DNA from: a virus | IMG/VR virus record: IMGVR_UViG_3300032311_000172 | Span: 1-21,736 of that record | Strand: one strand, 5' to 3' | Length of the DNA: 21,736 nucleotides | Part shown: positions 1,046 through 21,256 of the stretch, one piece after another | Layout of the letters: each line of letters begins with the position of its first letter | How positions within the stretch are numbered: position 1 is the stretch's first letter | Position numbers and translations under genes: made by a program | Notes under the pieces: generated by a model | Seen by the model: the letters and a program-made list of their open reading frames with translations, nothing else | What the model was told of the DNA's origin: nothing | The model's database searches: none

Positions 1046-2533
1046 ATGCAAGTTCCAAAGTTTAGAGATTTTATAAACGAGGCTAAAAAACCTAAAGACA
1101 ACGAACCAATTACAGTAGTTGTTATTACCAAATCTTCGCCTAAAGTAAGAAAACAAAAAACTGGTAATCGTAAGACTAAAAAAGAAATCACAGTTAGTTT
1201 TATACAAAGGTCTTGTAAGAAAAGAAAAATACCTTGTTTTATAATCAATACTAAACACTCAATCATTACAGATAAAGATGAAGAAAAAAATTCATTAACC
1301 ATTTATAACTATGATGGTGAAGATGGTGAACATACTTTCATAGGTAAAAACACAGTTGTTATTACTAGAGCAGGTGCTATTGAAGATGAAGCAGGCCTTT
1401 CTTTAATATCAGCCTTTCAAAATTCTGGTGCATTTATGTTAAACACTAGATCATCAATGTTAACTTGTGATAATAAACTCACGTCTGCTTTATTATTTGA
1501 AAAATTTAATATACCTACACCAAAGACTGCCTTTGTATCTAATGAAAAGAACATAGATAGTGCATTAAAGATTATAGGTAATAAATTTCCAGTTGTGGTT
1601 AAAACATTAACAGGCACACAAGGTATTGGTGTTGTAAAAGTAGATAGTTACGACTCATTAATATCAGTAGTACAAGCTTTATTTAAACACGATGCCGAGT
1701 TATTATTACAAGAATATATGCCAACAGATTTTGATATAAGAACCTTTGTTGTTGATAACAAAATATTTGCTTGTACAAAAAGAGTAAAAGCAAAAGGTGA
1801 ATTTAGATCAAACGTTCATAGAGGTGCGGTAGCAGAACCATACAAACTATCAGATGAAGAAATAGAAATAGTTTTAAGAACGGCCAGAGCATCAAAGGCA
1901 TACATTGTAGGTGTAGATCATATTATATTTAAAGATAAAATTTATGTATTAGAAGTTAACGGTTCACCAGGCACAGGTGCTGATTACGAAGGATATCATT
2001 ACGAAGATTATGCCGATACACCTAATACAACAGGCCCAATTAAAGGTAAACAACTAGTAGATAATATAATTGATTATATAAACGATAGGGACAATTGGGA
2101 TCGTCAATCAATAATAGAAGTAGGTTATATTGAAACAATAGAATTAGATGGCGTAGGTAAAGTAAGAGCAAAATTAGACACAGGTAATGGTGCTGAAGTC
2201 AGTGCATTACACGCCGAAGAAATAGATATTAAAGATGGTAAAGTTTCTTGGAAATATGATGGTAAAAAACATACAAGTAAACTTGTTCGTAAAGTAAAAA
2301 TTTTTAGAGCAAACGTAGATGACGACAAAGGCGAAGAAAGGCCAGTGGTTAAATTAGACTTAACGTTTAATGGGTTTGTTTATAAAGATGTAGAATTTGG
2401 TCTTGATGAAAGAATCAGATCACGTAATGACGTGTTGTTAAATAGGGATATGATAAGAAAATTTAACGCCTCGGTAAATCCCAACCGAGAGTTTGTGTTA
2501 AGTAGAAGAATCAAACCTATTGACAAAAAGTAA
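1046..2533 (+). CDS. RimK-like ATP-grasp ligase fused to RimB-like retropepsin/zinc-protease domain, with capsid-targeting-like N-terminus
   Basis: A 495-residue two-domain protein. Residues about 20-350 are an ATP-grasp amino-acid ligase of the RimK type: Lys186 in VVVKTLTGTQGIGVV (ATP-binding and glycine-rich loop), LLQEYMPTDFDIR, and the metal site LEVNGSPG (302-309). RimK adds glutamates to the C-terminus of ribosomal protein S6. Residues about 356-490 resemble the RimB/Zn_protease (PF05618-type) retropepsin-like fold: LDTGNGAEVSALHA with candidate catalytic Asp378, and VLLNRDMIRKF near the end. In bacteria these are usually separate genes of the rim system. The first 13 residues, MQVPKFRDFINEA, look like a T4 capsid-targeting and gp21-cleavage sequence. 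The gene directly follows regA. Domain calls are confident; the ribosomal target and packaging are inference. Confidence 0.85.
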   Translation: MQVPKFRDFINEAKKPKDNEPITVVVITKSSPKVRKQKTGNRKTKKEITVSFIQRSCKKRKIPCFIINTKHSIITDKDEEKNSLTIYNYDGEDGEHTFIGKNTVVITRAGAIEDEAGLSLISAFQNSGAFMLNTRSSMLTCDNKLTSALLFEKFNIPTPKTAFVSNEKNIDSALKIIGNKFPVVVKTLTGTQGIGVVKVDSYDSLISVVQALFKHDAELLLQEYMPTDFDIRTFVVDNKIFACTKRVKAKGEFRSNVHRGAVAEPYKLSDEEIEIVLRTARASKAYIVGVDHIIFKDKIYVLEVNGSPGTGADYEGYHYEDYADTPNTTGPIKGKQLVDNIIDYINDRDNWDRQSIIEVGYIETIELDGVGKVRAKLDTGNGAEVSALHAEEIDIKDGKVSWKYDGKKHTSKLVRKVKIFRANVDDDKGEERPVVKLDLTFNGFVYKDVEFGLDERIRSRNDVLLNRDMIRKFNASVNPNREFVLSRRIKPIDKK

Positions 2534-9066: not shown

Positions 9067-9074
9067 TATAAATA
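9067..9074 (+). promoter_or_regulatory. T4-type late promoter octamer (TATAAATA) before the speD-like gene
   Basis: Exact TATAAATA in the 66-base gap between the CmoA-like and speD-like genes. In T4 this octamer is the whole late promoter read by gp55-RNA polymerase, with start about 6 bases downstream (near 9081), giving a 47-base leader that contains GAGGTGG at 9094-9100. AT-richness makes chance hits possible, but the three I found are all in gene gaps. Confidence 0.65.
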
Positions 9075-12597: not shown

Positions 12598-12605
12598 TAT
12601 AAATA
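12598..12605 (+). promoter_or_regulatory. T4-type late promoter octamer (TATAAATA) at the early/late junction
   Basis: Exact TATAAATA in the 18-base gap after the gene at 12335. The predicted late start, about 6 bases downstream, falls on or next to the ATG at 12611, so the late mRNA would be leaderless or nearly so. No Shine-Dalgarno is visible for that ATG. Confidence 0.65.
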
Positions 12606-12610
12606 TATAA

Positions 12611-13792
12611 ATGGCCGACAAAACAGCATTACAAGAAAGCTCTCAAGCATTATTTTGTTCAATAGCAGATCAATTAGGAACAATAGAATCAAACAAAGTA
12701 TTAGATATTAAAAAATTTAATACATACGAAGATTTTAAATTAAAATATAATAAAATAATATCTTCTGCACATTCCAGAATTTCTACGCCTGCAGTTTCTT
12801 TAAAAGAAATAGATGATTTTTTAAGTAAAAATAAACCTTGGTATATATCCTCAGTAAATATTGCTGTTGCATTAGTCAATCAAATATCATTTATAGATAA
12901 TGATTTTAAAATTAAAGCACCTGGATATCAAAACATTTTTTACTTTAGAGGTGATAGTGAGATAATGGGTACTATTTCTTCTATATTTAAAATTGCAAAT
13001 AAAGCTCCTATAACAATTAAACAACAACTTAAATTTGGAGATATTAATAAATGGAATCCAGCAGATATATATTTTGCAAGTGATAAGGCTAAAACTGAAC
13101 TTAAAAAAGAATTAAACAAAGCAGAATCGAATCAATCATCATATAGTTTTATAAACTTAAATAGTATAACAAATTCTTTAATAGATTCTGGAGATTTATT
13201 ACCACTGTCTTTAAAGTTAGCAACAGGAACAGTTAAAATAGAAAGAATAAACTTTGATAGAAAAAAAGAATTAGAAGCAATTAAAGATATAAAAATTTCA
13301 AGTGTAAATGATTGGAAACCATACAAGATAGTTAAATATCCTACAAAAGGAGAAACAAGAGACATAACAGTTAATTTATCTAATGGAGGTAAAATAAAAA
13401 TGAGACACGATCCATCAACACCTTCTTATAAAATCGAAGCTGTTATAGATAAAGATTCTAGGGGGGGTTCTATAGGTAGTATGAAAATGTTTTGCGAATT
13501 AATGTCTTTTGTAGATAAAACAACAGCAGAAAAATTATTAAAAACATTTAATATAGCAGAACAACAGTTTAAAAAAGAAATCGTAATTTTAAAAAATAAA
13601 AAATATGAATACGATATATTTGATTATAAAAGAGCACAACTAAGTGCAATGACTATAACTAATGCAGTCAATCCAATATTAAAAAATTGGTATAATCAAA
13701 AGAATGAAAAAACAACACAGTTTTGTAAATTAGTATATTTGTATACCACAGCTAGAACACAACTGTCTGGCAAGTTTGTACTTGCAAAATAA
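12611..13792 (+). CDS. Late-gene protein of unknown function with possible nuclease-like (PD-(D/E)XK-type) core
   Basis: A 393-residue protein. N-terminal ALQESSQALFCSIADQLG, then KWNPADIYFAS (147-157) and, about 45 residues later, SGDLLPLSLKLAT (193-205), followed by MRHDPSTPSYK and RGGSIGSM. The PAD-I ... (S)LK spacing resembles the metal-binding D...(x)K core of PD-(D/E)XK-like folds found in some phage proteins, but one acidic ligand is not obvious, so nuclease activity is a weak guess. It comes directly after a late promoter octamer and is the first gene of the late region. It could equally be a virion protein. It has no capsid-targeting-like start. Confidence 0.6.
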   Translation: MADKTALQESSQALFCSIADQLGTIESNKVLDIKKFNTYEDFKLKYNKIISSAHSRISTPAVSLKEIDDFLSKNKPWYISSVNIAVALVNQISFIDNDFKIKAPGYQNIFYFRGDSEIMGTISSIFKIANKAPITIKQQLKFGDINKWNPADIYFASDKAKTELKKELNKAESNQSSYSFINLNSITNSLIDSGDLLPLSLKLATGTVKIERINFDRKKELEAIKDIKISSVNDWKPYKIVKYPTKGETRDITVNLSNGGKIKMRHDPSTPSYKIEAVIDKDSRGGSIGSMKMFCELMSFVDKTTAEKLLKTFNIAEQQFKKEIVILKNKKYEYDIFDYKRAQLSAMTITNAVNPILKNWYNQKNEKTTQFCKLVYLYTTARTQLSGKFVLAK

Positions 13793-13798
13793 TGTATG

Positions 13799-13806
13799 TA
13801 TAAATA
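13799..13806 (+). promoter_or_regulatory. T4-type late promoter octamer (TATAAATA) before the capsid-cargo operon
   Basis: Exact TATAAATA in the 74-base gap 13793-13866, the clearest intergenic region of the late half. Predicted start near 13813 gives a leader of about 54 bases with GAGAGGA at 13858-13864 before ATG 13867. Everything from 13867 to the window end is tightly packed and probably forms one late transcript. Confidence 0.75.
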
Positions 13807-13866: not shown

Positions 13867-15087
13867 ATGTTTAGTTTTAAAGGATTCGTTACTAAAGGTA
13901 CTAATACACATTTAGAACATTTAGAAGATTCTATTATAGATAGAGGTTCAAAGGGCGGTAAAGATGCCGTTAACTTTCTAAAGTCAATCAAAAAAATGTT
14001 AACTGGTCATACAGGTGGCCGATTAAACGTAACAGTAAAATGGGACGGTGCGCCGGCTGTTATATGTGGTATCAATCCTGAGAATGGTAAATTCTTTGTT
14101 GGTACAAAATCAGTATTCAATGTAACTCCAAAAGTAAATTACTCTACAGGCGATATAATGAAAAATCACGATGGAGTATTAGCACAAAAATTAATAGTAT
14201 GTTTAAGAGAATTATCTAAACTAGGTATTACAGGAATTCTACAAGGAGATTTATTATTTACTCCTGGCGATGTAAAAACAGTTAATATAGACGAACAAGA
14301 TTATCTTACATTTACACCAAATACAATTACATATGCAGTACCAGTAAATAGTGATTTAGGTAAAAGAATATCTAAAGCTAGAATTGGTATAGTATTTCAT
14401 ACAGTATATCACGGAAGTAATTTAAAAAGTTTAAAAGGAGGCTTTGGTTCTATAAAAGGATTTCCAAAATTAGCATCAGTGTTTGTTACAGACGCCACAT
14501 ATAAAGACGCTTCAGGTTCAGCAACATTTAGTAAAACAGAACAAGTACAATTTGATAGTATTCTTTCTATGGCTGAAGGTTCATTACAAAAAGCACAACC
14601 AGTTCTAAACGACTTCAACACATCTGATCCTTTGGCTGTAGGATATAAACTAAAATCATTCTTTAATTTTTATATACGCAATTCACAAGGAGATATGGCT
14701 AGAGTAAAAGAACTAGTAGAATCATTTAGATCATATTATGCAAATATGATACAACAAGAAGTTGACGCTGTATCTAAAGAAGAAACAAAAAATAAATACA
14801 GAACAATAAGAGATAATGGTTTAAATTTTATAGATAAAAACAAAAATGGAATTTATTATACAATCGCAAGTTGGATATCATTACAAAGAGCAAAAAACTT
14901 TTTAATACGTAAGTTAAATCAAATACAATCAATAGGGCATTTTATGAGAACACCTGATGGATATAGAGTTACAAATCCAGAAGGATATGTTGCTGTTGAT
15001 AGAGTAAGAGGGGCAGTTAAACTTGTAGATAGATTAGAATTTAGTCGTGCTAATTTTAATGTAGCACGTGACTGGGTAAAAGGATAA
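13867..15087 (+). CDS. Nucleotidyltransferase/ligase-like late protein (KWDG motif; DUF6267-like)
   Basis: A 406-residue member of a conserved marine T4-like family (I recall it as DUF6267). VTVKWDGAPAVICG (55-68) resembles motif I (KxDG) of ATP-dependent RNA/DNA ligases, with candidate adenylation Lys58. VGTKSVF (78-84), ITGILQGDLLF (121-131), ITYAVP (154-159) and IGIVFHTVY (173-181) fall where ligase motifs Ia, III, IIIa and IV would. HLEHLEDSIID near the start is typical of the family. If active it would seal or adenylylate nucleic acid. The N-terminus MFSFKGFVTKG is a degenerate version of the capsid-targeting start seen in its neighbours (Lys replaces Glu). It is the first gene after a late promoter. 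Confidence 0.7.
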   Translation: MFSFKGFVTKGTNTHLEHLEDSIIDRGSKGGKDAVNFLKSIKKMLTGHTGGRLNVTVKWDGAPAVICGINPENGKFFVGTKSVFNVTPKVNYSTGDIMKNHDGVLAQKLIVCLRELSKLGITGILQGDLLFTPGDVKTVNIDEQDYLTFTPNTITYAVPVNSDLGKRISKARIGIVFHTVYHGSNLKSLKGGFGSIKGFPKLASVFVTDATYKDASGSATFSKTEQVQFDSILSMAEGSLQKAQPVLNDFNTSDPLAVGYKLKSFFNFYIRNSQGDMARVKELVESFRSYYANMIQQEVDAVSKEETKNKYRTIRDNGLNFIDKNKNGIYYTIASWISLQRAKNFLIRKLNQIQSIGHFMRTPDGYRVTNPEGYVAVDRVRGAVKLVDRLEFSRANFNVARDWVKG

Positions 15088-15088
15088 T

Positions 15089-15376
15089 ATGAAAACATTT
15101 AAAGAATTTATAAACGAAGCTGCTGTAGATAAAAAAGGACTTAAAAGTTCTACAGGAGGTTTAACACAAAAAGGTAGAGATTATTATAATCGTAAAGATG
15201 GCAGTAATCTAAAAGCACCTGTAACAAAAAAACCATCTGAATTAAAAAAAGGTAGTAAGGCATACAATAGACGTAAGTCATTCTGTGCTCGTATGTCTGG
15301 TAATCCAGGCCCAATGAAAGACGAAAAGGGTAGACCGACTCGTAAGGCATTGGCATTAAGAAAGTGGAATTGTTAA
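15089..15376 (+). CDS. Small basic internal head protein candidate (capsid-targeting start plus DUF6321-like domain)
   Basis: A 95-residue, strongly basic protein. Residues 1-11, MKTFKEFINEA, are almost the T4 internal protein III start (MKTYQEFIAEA), including the gp21 cleavage pattern I-x-E before Ala. The rest, GLTQKGRDYYNRKDGSNLKAP...SKAYNRRKSFCARMSG...RPTRKALALRKWNC (non-contiguous pieces), is a very conserved small domain in marine phages that I recall as DUF6321; its function is unknown. Basic charge and small size suit a DNA-bound internal head protein released with the genome. Two Cys (in SFCARM and the last residue) are conserved in relatives as I recall. It is coupled to both neighbours with 0-1 base gaps. 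Confidence 0.8.
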   Translation: MKTFKEFINEAAVDKKGLKSSTGGLTQKGRDYYNRKDGSNLKAPVTKKPSELKKGSKAYNRRKSFCARMSGNPGPMKDEKGRPTRKALALRKWNC

Positions 15377-16009
15377 ATGGCACAGTTTAGAAAAGATACA
15401 CAAATATTTTTAGATCAAAGTAAAACAATCTATGAAGTGCCTATGATTGCCACAAAAGATGGTAATATAGTAGGTACAAGTAATCCTTTACCCGTTACTT
15501 TAAATTATGAAGAGCCTGGAAATTATTACGCATTTAATAATCATAATACACACACAAGTCGTGGATGGACTATGGATAATACAATGAGACCTGTATTAAG
15601 TATTCGTGTTAATCCTTCAGCAACAACAATATCGGACATTGCAAAAATATATGAATATGAACTTGGAAATAATAATGCCAATTCAAGCACTATTGTTTAT
15701 GAATGGTATGATGGAGCTATCACAATAGCTGGAGCAACAATACCAGATTGGACAAATTTAGGAACTAAAATTCAATATCGTGTTTATGAAGATAAGTATA
15801 GTTCAAATACGGGAAATACTTTTTCATTAAACGGTGCTAATTTATTTCATACTGGTATAATTATAGGTAAAAATACTAGTGATGATGTATTACCCGTAAA
15901 TATGTTAGGAGGAAATACACCTAATATGTTAACTCTTTGTGTAAAGAGAGTTGATAATGCTACAAAATTAGATATTTGGTTTACTATTAATCTAAAAGAA
16001 TTGACATAA
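15377..16009 (+). CDS. Putative virion structural protein
   Basis: A 210-residue, beta-rich, Asn/Thr-rich protein starting AQFRKDTQIFLDQSKTIYEVPMIA, a start I recognise from marine T4-like virion proteins. The body (NNHNTHTSRGWTMDN, RVNPSATTISDI, ANLFHTGIIIG, GGNTPNMLTLCVKR) looks like a jelly-roll or fibre-decoration type fold, with no enzyme motif. Being in the late operon between two proteins with capsid-targeting starts, it is probably a capsid or tail accessory protein. The ATG abuts the preceding stop and its stop overlaps the kinase ATG (TAATG). Confidence 0.65.
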   Translation: MAQFRKDTQIFLDQSKTIYEVPMIATKDGNIVGTSNPLPVTLNYEEPGNYYAFNNHNTHTSRGWTMDNTMRPVLSIRVNPSATTISDIAKIYEYELGNNNANSSTIVYEWYDGAITIAGATIPDWTNLGTKIQYRVYEDKYSSNTGNTFSLNGANLFHTGIIIGKNTSDDVLPVNMLGGNTPNMLTLCVKRVDNATKLDIWFTINLKELT

Positions 16010-16695
16010 TGAAATCGTTTGAACAAATACTTTCAGAAGGCTTATATGACCCTAATATATTTAAGGCTTTCTTTTTAGCTGGAGGGCCAGGTTCAGGCAA
16101 ATCTTTTGTTGCAAGAAATGTATTTACAGGAACAGGATTAAAATTAGTTAATTCAGATATAATATTAGAAAACAGTTTAAAAAAAGCAGGCCTGTCTTTA
16201 TCTATGCCTGATGAAGAACAATATTTTAGAGATATATTAAGAACAAGAGCAAAGGCAATTGTAGATAATCAAATAGACTTATATGTAAAGGGCCGATTAG
16301 GTTTAGTTATAGATGCCACAGGTAGAGATTACAACATTATCAGTCGCCAGTTTAGTGCATTACAATTATTAGGTTATGATTGTTATATGGTATTTGTAAA
16401 CACAAGTTTAGAAGTTGCATTAGAAAGAAATGCTAAAAGAGAAAGAGTTGTACCAGAATATATTACAAAAAATTCTTGGCAATCAGTTCAAAATAATATA
16501 GGTAGATTTCAAAACCTTTTTGGTTTAACAAACTTTGTTGTAGTAGATAACAGTAAATCAGAACAAGAATTAGTTACACTAACAATGAATAAAGTAAATA
16601 GTGTTGTAAGAAGATTTTTGGGCACACCAATTAAAAGTTATATTGCTAAAAGATGGATGGCAAAAGAAAGAATGGCAAGAAGAAAAGATGTTTAG
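16009..16695 (+). CDS. P-loop kinase (polynucleotide kinase/zeta-toxin-like) with capsid-targeting-like start
   Basis: A 228-residue P-loop NTPase. Residues 1-11, MKSFEQILSEG, fit the capsid-targeting and prohead-protease pattern (I-L-S-E before Gly). Walker A is GGPGSGKS (25-32) after FKAFFLA. VNSDIILE resembles the Asp-bearing substrate loop of PNK-type kinases, LVIDATGRDY is a Walker-B-like strand, and RNAKRERVVPEY is the lid with two Arg. The fold is that of T4 PNK N-terminal, zeta toxin and AAA_33 kinases, acting on a 5'-OH nucleic acid end or a small metabolite. The phosphatase half of T4 Pnkp is absent. The basic C-terminus overlaps the next gene by 8 bases. Confidence 0.82.
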   Translation: MKSFEQILSEGLYDPNIFKAFFLAGGPGSGKSFVARNVFTGTGLKLVNSDIILENSLKKAGLSLSMPDEEQYFRDILRTRAKAIVDNQIDLYVKGRLGLVIDATGRDYNIISRQFSALQLLGYDCYMVFVNTSLEVALERNAKRERVVPEYITKNSWQSVQNNIGRFQNLFGLTNFVVVDNSKSEQELVTLTMNKVNSVVRRFLGTPIKSYIAKRWMAKERMARRKDV

Positions 16696-18787
16696 ATTAA
16701 TTAAAGAAGCAGTAATAGATATACCTAGACGAACATATGCCAAAGGTGTATTTGATGATGCAGATACAGAAAATCCAAAATTAAAACAATCCGTATTAGA
16801 CATTATACAAAATCAAATTAAACAATTTAATGAAATAAGACCGGTATTAAAATATAGTTTAGTTGGTTCAATACTTACAAAAAATTATAGAGATGATGCC
16901 GATTTAGATGTAAATGTTTTATTTGATGTATCATTACCTGATAGAGATGTAATAAGAAAAGAATTAGCTAAATCATTAAGAAATATAAATGGCGCTTTGG
17001 TACCAGGAACTAAACACCCAATTAACTATTATATCATTACAGATCCAAATGTAAAAGAAACAAACGATAAGATGGCAGATGCTGTATTTGATATTAAGAA
17101 CAATACATTTATAAGAAAAGCAAAAGAATTTAAGTTTGATGCAAAACGTTATGCCGCTGATTTTGAAAAAAGAGTTAAAGAGATTGATGTAGTTCAAGGC
17201 GAATTAAAACGAGACCTTATAGACTATAAAGAATTAAAAGAATTAAATCCAGATGACATATTAAATTTACAAGAATTAATAAATGAAAAGTTAGATGAAA
17301 TAGAAAATGGTATTAAACAATTAGTTGATATTGGTAACACAGTATTAAAAGATAGAGCTGATGCTTTTGCTACTGATATGACACCAGAAGAAATAAAAAC
17401 ATTTGGTAGAAAAAATCAATTACCTAAAAATGTTGTATATAAGATGTTAGAGAAATATCATTACTTAACTTTCTATAAAGAATTAAAAGATATATTAGAA
17501 GATGGACAAGTAACAGATGCAGAAATACAATCTATACAAACAGAAGAAGTAAACAAATCTTTTGCATTTACTTTTGGTAGATTTAATCCACCAACAATAG
17601 GCCACGAGAAACTTATAAGAACAGTTGCAAGTCAAGGTTCAGATTATAAAATCTTTATAAGTAGATCACAAGACGCAGTTAAAAATCCATTATCACCATC
17701 AGACAAATTAAAATGGATGCAAATGATATTTAAAAATTATGCTAGTCACATATTAGTAATGCCAACAAATATGGTATTAGAATTAGCAACAAAAATTTAT
17801 AGTATGGGTTACACATCAATAACTATGGTTGTAGGAAGTGATAGAGTAGGAGAATTTAAATCTATATTAAACAAATATAATGATGAAAAAAATAGACACG
17901 GATATTATAATTTTAAAAAGATTGATGTAGTATCTGCTGGCGAAAGAGATCCAGATGAAGAAGGCGTAACTGGAATGAGTGCAAGTAAATTAAGAGACTA
18001 TGCAAAAAGAGGAGATTTAAAAAATTTCAAAAGAGGAGTTCCAGGTAATTTATCTGAAAAACAAAAGAACGAATTATTTTTTGATGTAAGAAAAGGTATG
18101 GGATTATCAGTTAGTTTAGCTTCTAATTTCGAACCACAAGAAAATAAAATAAAAACGTTACAAGAATTTGAAGCTAAACAAGTAAGAGATTTATACATTA
18201 GAGAAGTAATATTTAATATTGGAGAACAAGTGAATAACACCAAATTAAATATAATTGGAAAAGTAATAAGACGAGGAACAAATTATATTGTATTAGAAGA
18301 TACGAATAATAGTTTACACAAATCTTGGATTTGGGATTGTATACCAATTTCAGCTAATAAAGAAGTTGCAGTAAGAGAATATAACTTAGACGTAGATTAC
18401 GGATTTAAAGCCGTTTCAGAAATCAAAGAAGAACCTAAACTAATACAAGAAAAAAAGAAAAAAATGTTTGGTGAATTAAAAAAGGAATTAATTAAAATGA
18501 CTGATACTAAAAAAGAAGCATATGATATAGGCCACGATTATGCTCAACACACATCTAAAACAACACCTGGCGAACCGGGTTATGACCCTAATTATAAAGG
18601 TACATCTTATAAACCAAGTAAACCTGATGATAATTTAAAACAAATAACTACCCAGGATATAGAAGAATGGGCTAATTCAAATGCTACAATAGATAAATAT
18701 AGAGAAAGGTACGGCGATAATTATAAGTCTAAAATAGACGAAGTTAAAGGTAAGATGTTATCTTTCAAAGATTACGCTAAAAAATAA
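16688..18787 (+). CDS. Dual nucleotidyltransferase (MNT-like plus NMNAT/cytidylyltransferase-like) cargo protein
   Basis: A 699-residue protein from ATG 16688 (an in-frame TTG at 16643 is less likely). The start MFRLIKEA matches a shortened capsid-targeting motif. Residues about 15-150 form a polymerase-beta-type nucleotidyltransferase: GSILTKNYRDDADLDVNVLFD (pieces; Gly60-Ser61, Asp72, Asp74). Residues about 290-440 are a HIGH-superfamily nucleotidyltransferase: FGRFNPPTIGHEKLI (TIGH at 303-306) and late MSASKLRDYAKRGD, like NMNAT or cytidylyltransferases. The C-terminal part holds cassettes common in marine phage virion proteins: GKVIRRGTNYIVLED (524-538), SEIKEEPKLIQEK (577-589) and AYDIGHDYAQHT (611-622). 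Substrates are unknown; RNA-end and NMN/NAD chemistry are the natural guesses. Confidence 0.82.
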   Translation: MFRLIKEAVIDIPRRTYAKGVFDDADTENPKLKQSVLDIIQNQIKQFNEIRPVLKYSLVGSILTKNYRDDADLDVNVLFDVSLPDRDVIRKELAKSLRNINGALVPGTKHPINYYIITDPNVKETNDKMADAVFDIKNNTFIRKAKEFKFDAKRYAADFEKRVKEIDVVQGELKRDLIDYKELKELNPDDILNLQELINEKLDEIENGIKQLVDIGNTVLKDRADAFATDMTPEEIKTFGRKNQLPKNVVYKMLEKYHYLTFYKELKDILEDGQVTDAEIQSIQTEEVNKSFAFTFGRFNPPTIGHEKLIRTVASQGSDYKIFISRSQDAVKNPLSPSDKLKWMQMIFKNYASHILVMPTNMVLELATKIYSMGYTSITMVVGSDRVGEFKSILNKYNDEKNRHGYYNFKKIDVVSAGERDPDEEGVTGMSASKLRDYAKRGDLKNFKRGVPGNLSEKQKNELFFDVRKGMGLSVSLASNFEPQENKIKTLQEFEAKQVRDLYIREVIFNIGEQVNNTKLNIIGKVIRRGTNYIVLEDTNNSLHKSWIWDCIPISANKEVAVREYNLDVDYGFKAVSEIKEEPKLIQEKKKKMFGELKKELIKMTDTKKEAYDIGHDYAQHTSKTTPGEPGYDPNYKGTSYKPSKPDDNLKQITTQDIEEWANSNATIDKYRERYGDNYKSKIDEVKGKMLSFKDYAKK

Positions 18788-18788
18788 T

Positions 18789-19976
18789 ATGAGTTTTATA
18801 AAAGAATCAAAAAAAGCGTACAGCCAAGTAAAAGAAAATCACATTGCAATTGCTATGGGTAATATGTTAGATGATGAAGGCAGTATGATATTAAATCAAC
18901 TAGAAGAATTAGAACGAGGTATTCAGATGCTTCGTGCTTACGTTGGTAACGATTATGAAAAACAATTACCAGCTTGGGTTCAATCTAAAGTTACTTTAGC
19001 AACCGATTACATTTCTACTGTAGGTAATTATCTTTCTAGTAAAAATGAAAAAGTAACAGAAGAAACTATTAAAGAATCTTCACATTTAACAGAAACTACT
19101 TTTGAAAAGATTTATCAAATGCAACAAGATGGTAAATCGTCAGAAGATATAGCAAAAGAATTAAAACTAAATCCAGCTTTAGTTAAAAAAGTTTTAGGCG
19201 AACAGATAGAATTAAAAGAATTTACAGATGCTATGCTTGCCGCTCTTAAAAAAGAATACGAACCATTAAAAGGTAAAACAATTACCACAGCACAGTATCA
19301 ACAATTAAAAAATATATTGTTTAAACTACAAGATGCTGATTTAGAAAAATTACAAAAACAAAATATACCATTTGCTTCAACTGGAGCTGGTTCAATATTA
19401 AGAGTAAGAAAATCACCAGTTAAAATAACAAGCGTTAAAGTTCCTGGTTTAGAAGGTATGGCCGAAGAAAACCAATATGTAGCTGTACACGTTAAAAAAG
19501 GAAAAACAAGTGTAACAGCAAACTCATCTTACGAAGCAGCTAAAAAGGCTTCAGAAAAATTTGGATTAAATAATACAACAGGCATAACTGTTATGTTAGC
19601 TAAAAAAGATGGTGAAGATGTTATACATAAAGCAACAGAACAAGTAAAAGTTACAGAAGAACCTAAAAATCCATATGCTATTGGTATGGCCGCTGCTATG
19701 AAAGCAACAGGCGATACACCTCCTTTAAAAAAATCTACTATTACTAAGGCACATAAAATTGCTGATAAAGTAAAAGAAGAAGTAGAAATACAAGAAGAGC
19801 CAAAATTAAATCAAAAAGAGATAGATAAATTTCATACCAGTTTAGATAAATTGGTACATAAAACTTTTGGTTCAAGTTCAGATGAAAAGAAAAAACAAGA
19901 ACCTAAAAAAGAAGCATATAAAGGCGCTAAAGCAACAGTAGAAAAAGCTTTCAAAAAATTAAAGGAGAAAAAGTAA
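18789..19976 (+). CDS. Late cargo/internal virion protein with processing-site-like repeats
   Basis: A 395-residue Lys/Glu-rich protein. The start MSFIKESKKA carries an I-K-E cleavage-like motif. Conserved segments known to me from marine T4-like virion proteins are LPAWVQSKVTLATDYIST (60-77), a helix-turn-helix-like QQDGKSSEDIAKELKLNPALVKK (pieces, 112-134), SVTANSSYEAAKKASEKFGL (241-260) and PYAIGMAAAMKATGDTPP (295-312) with KKSTITKAHKIA. Linkers TIKESS (93-98), VTEEPK (288-293) and EEVEIQEEPK (330-339) resemble prohead-protease sites. No catalytic motif was found. It is coupled in the late operon (1-base gap upstream, TAATG overlap downstream). Function is unknown; packaging is inference. 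Confidence 0.7.
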   Translation: MSFIKESKKAYSQVKENHIAIAMGNMLDDEGSMILNQLEELERGIQMLRAYVGNDYEKQLPAWVQSKVTLATDYISTVGNYLSSKNEKVTEETIKESSHLTETTFEKIYQMQQDGKSSEDIAKELKLNPALVKKVLGEQIELKEFTDAMLAALKKEYEPLKGKTITTAQYQQLKNILFKLQDADLEKLQKQNIPFASTGAGSILRVRKSPVKITSVKVPGLEGMAEENQYVAVHVKKGKTSVTANSSYEAAKKASEKFGLNNTTGITVMLAKKDGEDVIHKATEQVKVTEEPKNPYAIGMAAAMKATGDTPPLKKSTITKAHKIADKVKEEVEIQEEPKLNQKEIDKFHTSLDKLVHKTFGSSSDEKKKQEPKKEAYKGAKATVEKAFKKLKEKK

Positions 19977-21256
19977 TGACAAGATATTTAGAAATTAAAC
20001 CAGGCAGTATATCAGAAACTATCAAAAGATTGAGTGATGATTACCAGGCCATATTTAAAAAAGAATTAGAAAAAACAGGTAAAGGTATTGGTTCAATGAC
20101 ACCTGATGAGAAGAAAGCATTTTTTAATAAGATAGATAAAATGCACAATGCTAAAAATGAAGCAATGGATAGTAGTTGGATTAAAAAAGAAATAGATAAA
20201 GAAAAAAAAACTACATTAGTAGCTGCACCAGGTAATAAAGAAAAAGTAATCAGAATACCAAAAGAAAAATTAGCAGATTATAAAGCAAAAGGTTATGTTG
20301 AAGCCGAGAGTTACATACCTGAAGCAAAAAAAGTTAAAGAAGAAGAACTAACTGCTGCACAAAAAAAATTACCACCAGCACTTCAAAAAGCTATAGATAA
20401 AAAAGATAAGAAAGAAGAAGTAGAAATAAAAGAAATTACTGATGAAGAAGAAAAAAATTATGCCAGACAAATTACCTCTCTATCTAATGACAAAGTAATG
20501 GCAAGAATTAATAAAAAAGGTGATGAAGCAATAGCAGCCATTCAAACAAAAATAGATAGTGTTAAAGCTGAAAGAGATAAAAAAAGAGCTCAAAAAAATG
20601 AAGAAGTAAAAATGAAAGACGATCCTTGCTGGAAAGATTATAAAATGGTTGGAATGAAAAAGAAAAATGGTAAAGACGTTCCTAACTGTGTACCAAAGGA
20701 AGAAGTTGAAATCAAAGAAGGTGGAATGAAAGAAATTGATACTAACAAAAAAGAATTAGAAAGACTATCTACAAGATTATCTCAACTAAGAGATAGAAAA
20801 AATGCAAACGCCGGCGGAGACACAACTGATGTTGAAAAACAAATAAAACAAACTCAAATGTCAGTAATTGACGTAAAGAAAAGATTGTCAGCTACTAAAA
20901 AAGAAGAAGTAGAAAATGTTGAAGAAGCCGCAGGTCCAAATAGATTAACAAATCTAAATGATAAGATATCAAAATTACAAGTTAACTTATCTAAATTAGA
21001 TAAATCTAAACCTGAAAGTAAAACTAAAGAAGCAATTATGAAAGCTGATCTTGTTACAGCAAAATTAAGATTACAAGACTTAATGCAAAAAAGAAATACT
21101 GAAACAAAAAAAGAATCAGTAAATGAAGCAAAGAAAACTTATAAGTCTATGAAAAAATCTTTAAAAAAAGAACAAGATAAAGAAGTTAATACTAAAAGAA
21201 CTTTAACAGACAAACCAATAACTAAAATTGACGTAGATCCTAAGGTTAAAGGTTAA
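19976..21256 (+). CDS. Highly charged coiled-coil polyprotein-like late protein with EEVE repeats
   Basis: A 426-residue, Lys/Glu-dominated protein predicted to be mostly helical or disordered, with coiled-coil-like stretches (about 250-305 and 322-375). A processing-like motif recurs: YIPEA (113-117), EEVEIKEI (147-154), EEVEIKEGG (242-250), EEVENVEEAA (310-319) and ESVNEA (380-385), each ending in a Glu before a small or hydrophobic residue, as in T4 gp21 sites. Between the second and third lies DPCWKDYKMVGMKKKNG to CVP (216-240; Cys218, Trp219, Cys238), a cassette I recall from cyanophage virion proteins. The composition is like a head core or scaffold protein. No enzyme motif is visible. 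Confidence 0.7.
   Translation: MTRYLEIKPGSISETIKRLSDDYQAIFKKELEKTGKGIGSMTPDEKKAFFNKIDKMHNAKNEAMDSSWIKKEIDKEKKTTLVAAPGNKEKVIRIPKEKLADYKAKGYVEAESYIPEAKKVKEEELTAAQKKLPPALQKAIDKKDKKEEVEIKEITDEEEKNYARQITSLSNDKVMARINKKGDEAIAAIQTKIDSVKAERDKKRAQKNEEVKMKDDPCWKDYKMVGMKKKNGKDVPNCVPKEEVEIKEGGMKEIDTNKKELERLSTRLSQLRDRKNANAGGDTTDVEKQIKQTQMSVIDVKKRLSATKKEEVENVEEAAGPNRLTNLNDKISKLQVNLSKLDKSKPESKTKEAIMKADLVTAKLRLQDLMQKRNTETKKESVNEAKKTYKSMKKSLKKEQDKEVNTKRTLTDKPITKIDVDPKVKG
20413..20930 (+). repeat. Imperfect direct repeats encoding EEVE(I/N)(K/V)E linkers
   Basis: Three near-identical coding repeats (about 20411-20436, 20697-20722 and 20898-20926) of the form AAAGAAGAAGTAGAAAT..., plus a fourth in the preceding gene near 19773-19797. 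Codon choice differs slightly between copies (GTA or GTT, ATA or ATC), so the amino-acid sequence is more conserved than the DNA. They border compact conserved cassettes. Confidence 0.6.

Follow-up and report, generated by a model that had tools for sequence, protein, structure and literature searches.

The 21,736-base virus record IMGVR_UViG_3300032311_000172 (the whole stretch analyzed, here called the window) is a fragment of a T4-like phage; capsid genes are not within the fragment. Genes for gp62, RegA, gp43 polymerase, UvsX, and gp41, named by comparison with Pelagibacter phage HTVC008M, lie upstream of a block that begins at position 13867. Several products of this block, together with a RimK-RimB-like fusion encoded at 1046, open with a short peptide that resembles the capsid-targeting sequence (CTS) of the T4 internal proteins (IPs). 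In T4, CTS residues 4 and 7 target the protein, processing depends on residues 8 and 10, and the cut made by gp21 falls after [LI]-x-E (PMC9026906). Do whole enzymes in the window carry such a tag, as a preliminary description of this DNA had proposed? The peptides quoted there are all present where it placed them: MKTFKEFINEA at 15089, MKSFEQILSEG at 16009, MFRLIKEA at 16688, MSFIKESKKA at 18789, and MFSFKGFVTKG at 13867. We refer to each product by the first position of its gene (Table 1). DUF6267, encoded at 13867, is found in a similar setting in the cultured phages HTVC008M and Methylophilales phage Melnitz and in cyanophages. Neither Rfam families nor tRNAs were found in the window.

We built a strict pattern, [FY]xx[FYLI][ILVM]xE, on T4 CTS residues 4, 7, 8, and 10. 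It occurs at 3 of the 24 protein starts of the window (RimK-RimB at 1046, DUF6321 at 15089, and the kinase at 16009) versus 0.14 expected from shuffled N-termini; none of 300 N-terminus shuffles reached three, a probability that is optimistic because the pattern was written after the window had been seen. A looser pattern (3 versus 0.56 expected; 2% of shuffles) was dropped as a basis for claims because it gave many false matches, to UvsX and others. Genome-wide in HTVC008M, the strict pattern does not exceed chance expectation (1 versus 0.87), the tags of that phage being more diverged. Aromatic or hydrophobic residues at about positions 4 and 7, as in the T4 CTS, are found in the 1046, 15089, and 16009 products, for 16688 in its relatives only (MRFKDFIKES), and not in the 19976 product.

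The 15089 product has the features of a T4 IP: it is small and basic and carries an IP tag (T4 IPI starts MKTFKEF, and IPII and IPIII start MKTYQEFIAEA). Its first 25 residues match six PHROG families of internal head or internal virion proteins, with every alignment beginning at profile position 1 and a best E of 5e-4, and this profile match is independent support for the predicted tag. The same scan of nine other N-termini, tagged and untagged, including those of the kinase, nucleotidyltransferase, and RimK, gave no internal-protein match. Larger phage proteins can also end in DUF6321, as does S-SZBM1_192, which itself starts MKTFKQYITEA.

Table 1. Tagged genes, late-promoter cores, and neighboring genes in the window
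Feature	Position	Strand	Tag or start	Support
RimK-RimB-like fusion: RimK-like ATP-grasp and putative Zn protease domain	1046..2533	+	MQVPKFRDFINE, 1046-1081	Pfam RimK E=3e-41, Zn_protease E=9e-10
TATAAATA, T4-type late-promoter core, intergenic, ahead of SpeD	9067-9074			kept in 18/18 relatives
TATAAATA, T4-type late-promoter core, just 5' of the 12611 gene	12598..12605	+		13/26 relatives
Untagged protein, distant homolog of S-SCSM1 ORF90 (annotated virion protein)	12611..13792	+		blastp 24% identity, E=1e-10
TATAAATA, T4-type late-promoter core, intergenic, heads the tagged operon	13799..13806	+		66/68 distinct relatives vs 2.6 expected
DUF6267 protein, ligase-like N-terminal half with KWDG	13867..15087	+	degenerate, MFSFKGFVTKG, 13867-13899	Pfam DUF6267 E=1e-116 from residue 13
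DUF6321 protein, 95 aa, pI 10.4, T4 internal protein-like	15089..15376	+	MKTFKEFINE, 15089-15118	
P-loop kinase (AAA_33/zeta-like)	16009..16695	+	MKSFEQILSE, 16009-16038	
Nucleotidyltransferase domain and PPAT/NMNAT-like adenylyltransferase	16688..18787	+	short, MFRLIKE, 16688-16708	Pfam; PHROG cytidyltransferase E=1e-63
Uncharacterized protein	18789..19976	+	weak, MSFIKES	
Lys/Glu-rich modular protein	19976..21256	+	YLEIKPGSISE, a different conserved motif with [ILV]-x-E	

Between DUF6321 and the kinase, at 15377-16009, lies a protein for which PHROG gives a virion structural protein match over residues 1-55 (E=4e-9) and no clear match beyond; the product looks like a shared N-terminus fused to variable bodies.

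Conservation of the tag and its predicted cut site

The tag starts were compared among relatives at about 60-100% identity. The P1 Glu, which precedes the expected cut, is invariant in 57/57 contexts of the kinase, 58/58 of the nucleotidyltransferase, 27/27 of RimK-RimB, and 11/11 of an adenylate kinase found in relatives, with both GAA and GAG used. The tags end in the [LI]-x-E form expected of a cleavage site. Invariance with synonymous codons points to purifying selection on a residue outside any recognized domain. The RimK-RimB tag is present in all relatives examined (27 distinct contexts), and its start in the window, MQVPKFRDFINEA, which the preliminary description had placed in the same set, belongs with the true tags both by the strict pattern and by its P1 Glu. 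The kinase tag varies ahead of the predicted cut both in sequence and in length (MKSFEQILSEG, MKVNSFIQHLAEG, MKSFNELKNITLNEG, MKKFDDIRFQDLQEG), but [LI]-x-E-G stays constant. The N-termini of relatives also conserve the P1 Glu of the 15089 product.

For the 16688 product, the mechanical open reading frame (ORF) call begins at a TTG at 16643, but conservation among orthologs begins with the ATG at 16688. The tag there is a shortened form of one that is full-length in relatives. In one subclade (seven contigs: L037, L041, L044, L045, L048, L057, and L058), MRFKDF or a close variant is separated from a conserved [FL]xES before IIDIPRK by a PAP2-like phosphatase domain; the PAP2 Pfam match is shown for the nucleotidyltransferase protein of L041 (L041:6000-9401). 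This places the predicted targeting half at the front and the predicted cut half where the two enzymes meet, an arrangement that would suit a two-enzyme precursor.

DUF6267 is the exception at the cut site. In this clade, it keeps the aromatic half of the tag but has Lys at P1 (34/50 contexts), and distant relatives have an intact tag (MYSFKQYLNEA). By the rules known for T4, such a tag could still target the protein yet not be cut. As cargo in every phage DUF6267 was rejected, the S-PM2, S-SM1, and S-SZBM1 homologs having no tag.

The 18789 start reads MSFI[KT][ETQ]S in relatives, with T or Q in place of the Glu in some; the Glu is therefore not fixed, and this product is a weak candidate for the set that was set aside. 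The 19976 product starts as had been described (MTRYLEIKPGSISE, with ISE present). In relatives, this start is [YF]L..KPGS[ILV]xE, a distinct motif with only a conserved [ILV]-x-E in common with the tag, and the product was rejected as a member. The seven starts proposed as one family thus hold together for 1046, 15089, 16009, and 16688, which conserve the P1 Glu, and not for 18789 (weak), 19976 (other motif), or 13867 (Glu lost). The 18789 and 19976 products also share 24-nucleotide repeats encoding KEEVEI[QK]E (19773-19796, 20411-20434, and 20696-20719), which may provide internal [IL]-x-E cut sites that separate the modules. A Cys-containing module of the 19976 product, DPCWKDYKMVGMKKKNGKDVPNCVPKEE, is common to the virion-detected S-SZBM1_139 and S-CREM2 ORF160 and also to Melnitz ORF18.

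A Peptidase_S77 gp21 is encoded in relatives (contigs G001 and G002, HTVC008M, and cyanophages); it is demonstrated in relatives only, because the window has no capsid genes. The maturation site of the T4 capsid protein gp23 is GSFLTE/A (cut at the slash). Likely gp23 sites predicted from sequence are AAFLSE/A in G001, AFLGE/I in HTVC008M, SFLAE/A in S-SCSM1, ILTE/A in S-SZBM1, and LLTE/A in S-CREM2, so that the gp23 cut site of T4 and the probable sites of these relatives share the form of the tag end.

Among about 200 related contigs, the strict pattern was found in 347 ORFs, 342 of which belong to one of eight families, namely those of the kinase, RimK-RimB, the adenylate kinase, DUF6321, the nucleotidyltransferase/adenylyltransferase, and DUF6267, together with two families of small proteins. 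These counts are not a random sample, because the contigs were retrieved via three of the eight families; the point of the census is that the remaining genes on the same contigs are without the tag. The adenylate kinase, in which MKSFRDFIFE and four further residues are prepended to the usual Adk start MRIIMLGGPGSGKST, is the cleanest case of an added tag. In G001, a 165,693-bp relative, the region after gp41 is enriched in tagged genes (5/19 versus 1/194 elsewhere; p=1.9e-5).

Late promoter and virion proteomes

The T4 late-promoter core is below chance in the window overall, with three copies. All three lie within the 291 intergenic bases, a number attained in 0.1% of trials when intergenic sequence is shuffled. 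None was found before gp62, regA, RimK-RimB, pol, uvsX, or gp41, and none upstream of RimK-RimB in 34 relatives. In G001, the core also stands ahead of gp21, gp22, and the tail sheath gene. Because it precedes DUF6267 in nearly all relatives and the head genes of G001, the tagged operon looks timed with head assembly. RimK-RimB, to judge from its upstream sequence, looks not to be, unless by read-through.

Are tagged enzymes found in virions? Non-structural proteins reported in virions of cyanophage S-CREM2 (OR473000) are given in Table 3 of PMC10665884. Among the virion-reported proteins of that table, those that we find to be tagged include ORF6, an S-adenosylmethionine (SAM) hydrolase (MKDFDSFLEE), ORF13 (MKDLHSFLTE), the ORF14 kinase (MKRFDAFLTE), and ORF154 (MKNFSSFLTEA). 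ORF12 (L206:7704-10313), a Cas9-like protein reported there too, has the tag pattern RFASFMAEA at residues 18-26. The tagged adenylyltransferase is virion-reported in S-CREM2 as well as in S-SM1 (S-SM1_190, MKKFSAFLNEA), S-SZBM1 (S-SZBM1_140, MRFRQFIIEA), and S-SCSM1 (ORF91, MKSFLQFLKEA). The S-PM2 homolog has no tag and was not found in S-PM2 virions, in a study that also missed known structural proteins (PMC3037559).

Quantification of tag versus detection, over the translated parts of each genome, gave 3/3 versus 10/139 for the non-structural proteins of S-CREM2 (p=6e-4) and, for three phages combined, 5 versus 0.84 expected (P=4e-4). In S-SCSM1, 7/17 genes of the gp41-primase block are annotated virion proteins versus 1/66 other non-structural genes (p=3e-5), a test that by the analyst's choice leaves out the unnamed virion proteins of the structural region. 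The presence of tagged enzymes in virions of relatives suggests that these phages probably deliver working enzymes with their DNA.

Proposed capsid cargo and its alternatives

On these data, we propose, with a probability of roughly 0.78, that the operon from 13867 onward and RimK-RimB encode capsid cargo, held by the tag in the prohead core, cut by gp21, and packed and leaving with the DNA. A 7- to 12-residue N-terminal peptide, M(x)n[FY]xx[FYLI][ILV]xE, would act as it does in the T4 IPs: its aromatic/hydrophobic part would anchor the precursor in the prohead core, a gp21 cut after [IL]-x-E would free the enzyme, and the freed enzyme would be packaged and exit with the DNA, acting before phage gene expression. 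Capsid targeting is well supported for the 1046, 15089, 16009, and 16688 products, and cleavage of the tags after the Glu is likely; delivery and action at entry would follow by analogy with T4. The extension to 18789 and 19976, and to 13867 for cleavage, is not supported. That whole enzymes bear a T4-type tag, as the preliminary description proposed, is supported by tag conservation, the form of the gp23 cut site, the late promoter, and the virion proteomes of relatives; it does not extend to 19976 and does so only weakly to 18789.

What would the cargo do? The 16688 product has a nucleotidyltransferase domain and the fold of a PPAT/NMNAT-group (HxGH-type) adenylyltransferase (residues 289-475; Z 14.8 to PPAT, root mean square deviation 2.6 over 150 residues; motif FGRFNPPTIGH). 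DUF6267 has an invariant KWDG, and its modest model (pLDDT 68) weakly resembles RNA ligases: the top two VIA-align matches, REL1 (Z 6.5) and T4 Rnl2 (Z 6.2) over residues ∼50-217, are weak. A Foldseek search with DUF6267 gave no significant match, and PDB sequence searches with the DUF6267 and nucleotidyltransferase profiles gave no matches. RimK is described in PMC7343187 as modifying ribosomal protein S6 in bacteria. Most plausibly, the kinase, ligase-like DUF6267, nucleotidyltransferase, PPAT/NMNAT-like enzyme, and RimK would repair host-defense damage to nucleic acid or cofactors, or adjust ribosomes; a repair or counter-defense kit is our guess.

Several points weigh against the cargo reading. 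The strict pattern was defined post hoc, the 16688 tag is short, DUF6267 of this clade has lost the cut-site Glu, and RimK-RimB has no late promoter of its own. The virion evidence comes from cyanophage relatives. Tag and detection are not significantly associated in S-SCSM1 alone, and three tagged products, S-SZBM1_191, S-SZBM1_192, and S-SCSM1 ORF30, are missing from the reported virion proteins. The S-CREM2 authors noted (PMC10665884) that virion enzymes might be contaminants.

Three other explanations deserve weighing. Tag homology shows affinity for the head-assembly core only, and the enzymes might do their work on or inside the prohead while it is being assembled and be left behind or removed, undelivered. 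A late promoter fits such a role, as do the low peptide counts behind some virion detections. We consider it improbable, since tagged enzymes occur in CsCl- or otherwise purified virions of four phages, and T4 ejects its IPs and Alt, which share this arrangement. Less probable again is that true internal proteins are limited to the small, basic DUF6321, with the enzyme motif a relic or coincidence. DUF6321 alone matches known internal-protein profiles and is like the T4 IPs in size and charge, but the enzyme tags keep [IL]-x-E at 60-100% identity while adjoining residues diverge, and tagged enzymes were detected in cyanophage virions. Least probable, by a little, is that the peptide is an amphipathic start of the ordinary kind, or a host-contact motif that recombination has spread among neighbors, and that enzymes in virion preparations are contaminants: tagged genes are mostly neighbors and the S-CREM2 authors allow for contamination, but RimK-RimB is separated from the others by 12 kb, tagged genes of S-CREM2 occur both at 4-13 kb and at 124 kb, replication proteins are untagged, and the P1 Glu, invariant with synonymous variation, matches the gp23 site.

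A broader form of the cargo reading is tentative, and we would put it at somewhat under an even chance. Marine T4-like phages may have turned the internal-protein route into general enzyme delivery, with a dedicated late operon and scattered genes, swappable tags on kinases, ligase-like enzymes, and adenylyltransferases (in relatives also on SAM hydrolase and a Cas9-like protein), a repair and counter-defense kit that would enter with the DNA, and a protease-cut two-enzyme polyprotein in some lineages. If cargo delivery is true, a readable N-terminal tag would predict virion-borne phage enzymes across Kyanoviridae and related marine phages, and unexplained virion enzymes (adenylyltransferases, kinases, SAM hydrolase, and Cas9-like protein) would become a defined class of injected proteins. 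Enzyme delivery before any gene expression would be testable with existing mass-spectrometry files, and phages would offer natural tags for loading proteins into heads.

Relation to known systems

We found no open-licence paper that states a capsid-targeting sequence together with cyanophage or Pelagibacter enzymes. The virion enzymes of S-CREM2, S-SCSM1, S-SZBM1, and S-SM1 include the tagged adenylyltransferase family of 16688; the last three phages have the same syntenic block after gp41, whereas the S-CREM2 adenylyltransferase gene lies elsewhere. These enzymes were published as unexplained virion-associated proteins, and the tag is not mentioned in the covered parts of those virion-proteome papers. 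The N-terminal capsid signal of phage P1 DarB and the ejection-protein propeptides of SPN3US (PMC9024508, PMC5694885) are likewise N-terminal signals or propeptides on large head-travelling proteins, and SPN3US shares the prohead protease; their sequences differ, and SPN3US propeptides are mostly much longer. T4 Alt ADP-ribosyltransferase is a whole enzyme that is carried in the head, has a short N-terminal propeptide, and is ejected. It differs from the proposed window cargo, which comprises other enzymes mostly from one operon, in its start (MELITELFDED) and its target (RNA polymerase). The T4 IPs (PMC9026906) share the spelling of the tag, its [IL]-x-E end, and gp21 in relatives; in contrast, the proposed window cargo consists mostly of 25- to 78-kDa enzymes unrelated to IPs, in some cases with a shortened tag or one that no longer has the Glu. 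We judge the T4-type tag on whole enzymes to be a variant of the T4 internal-protein system.

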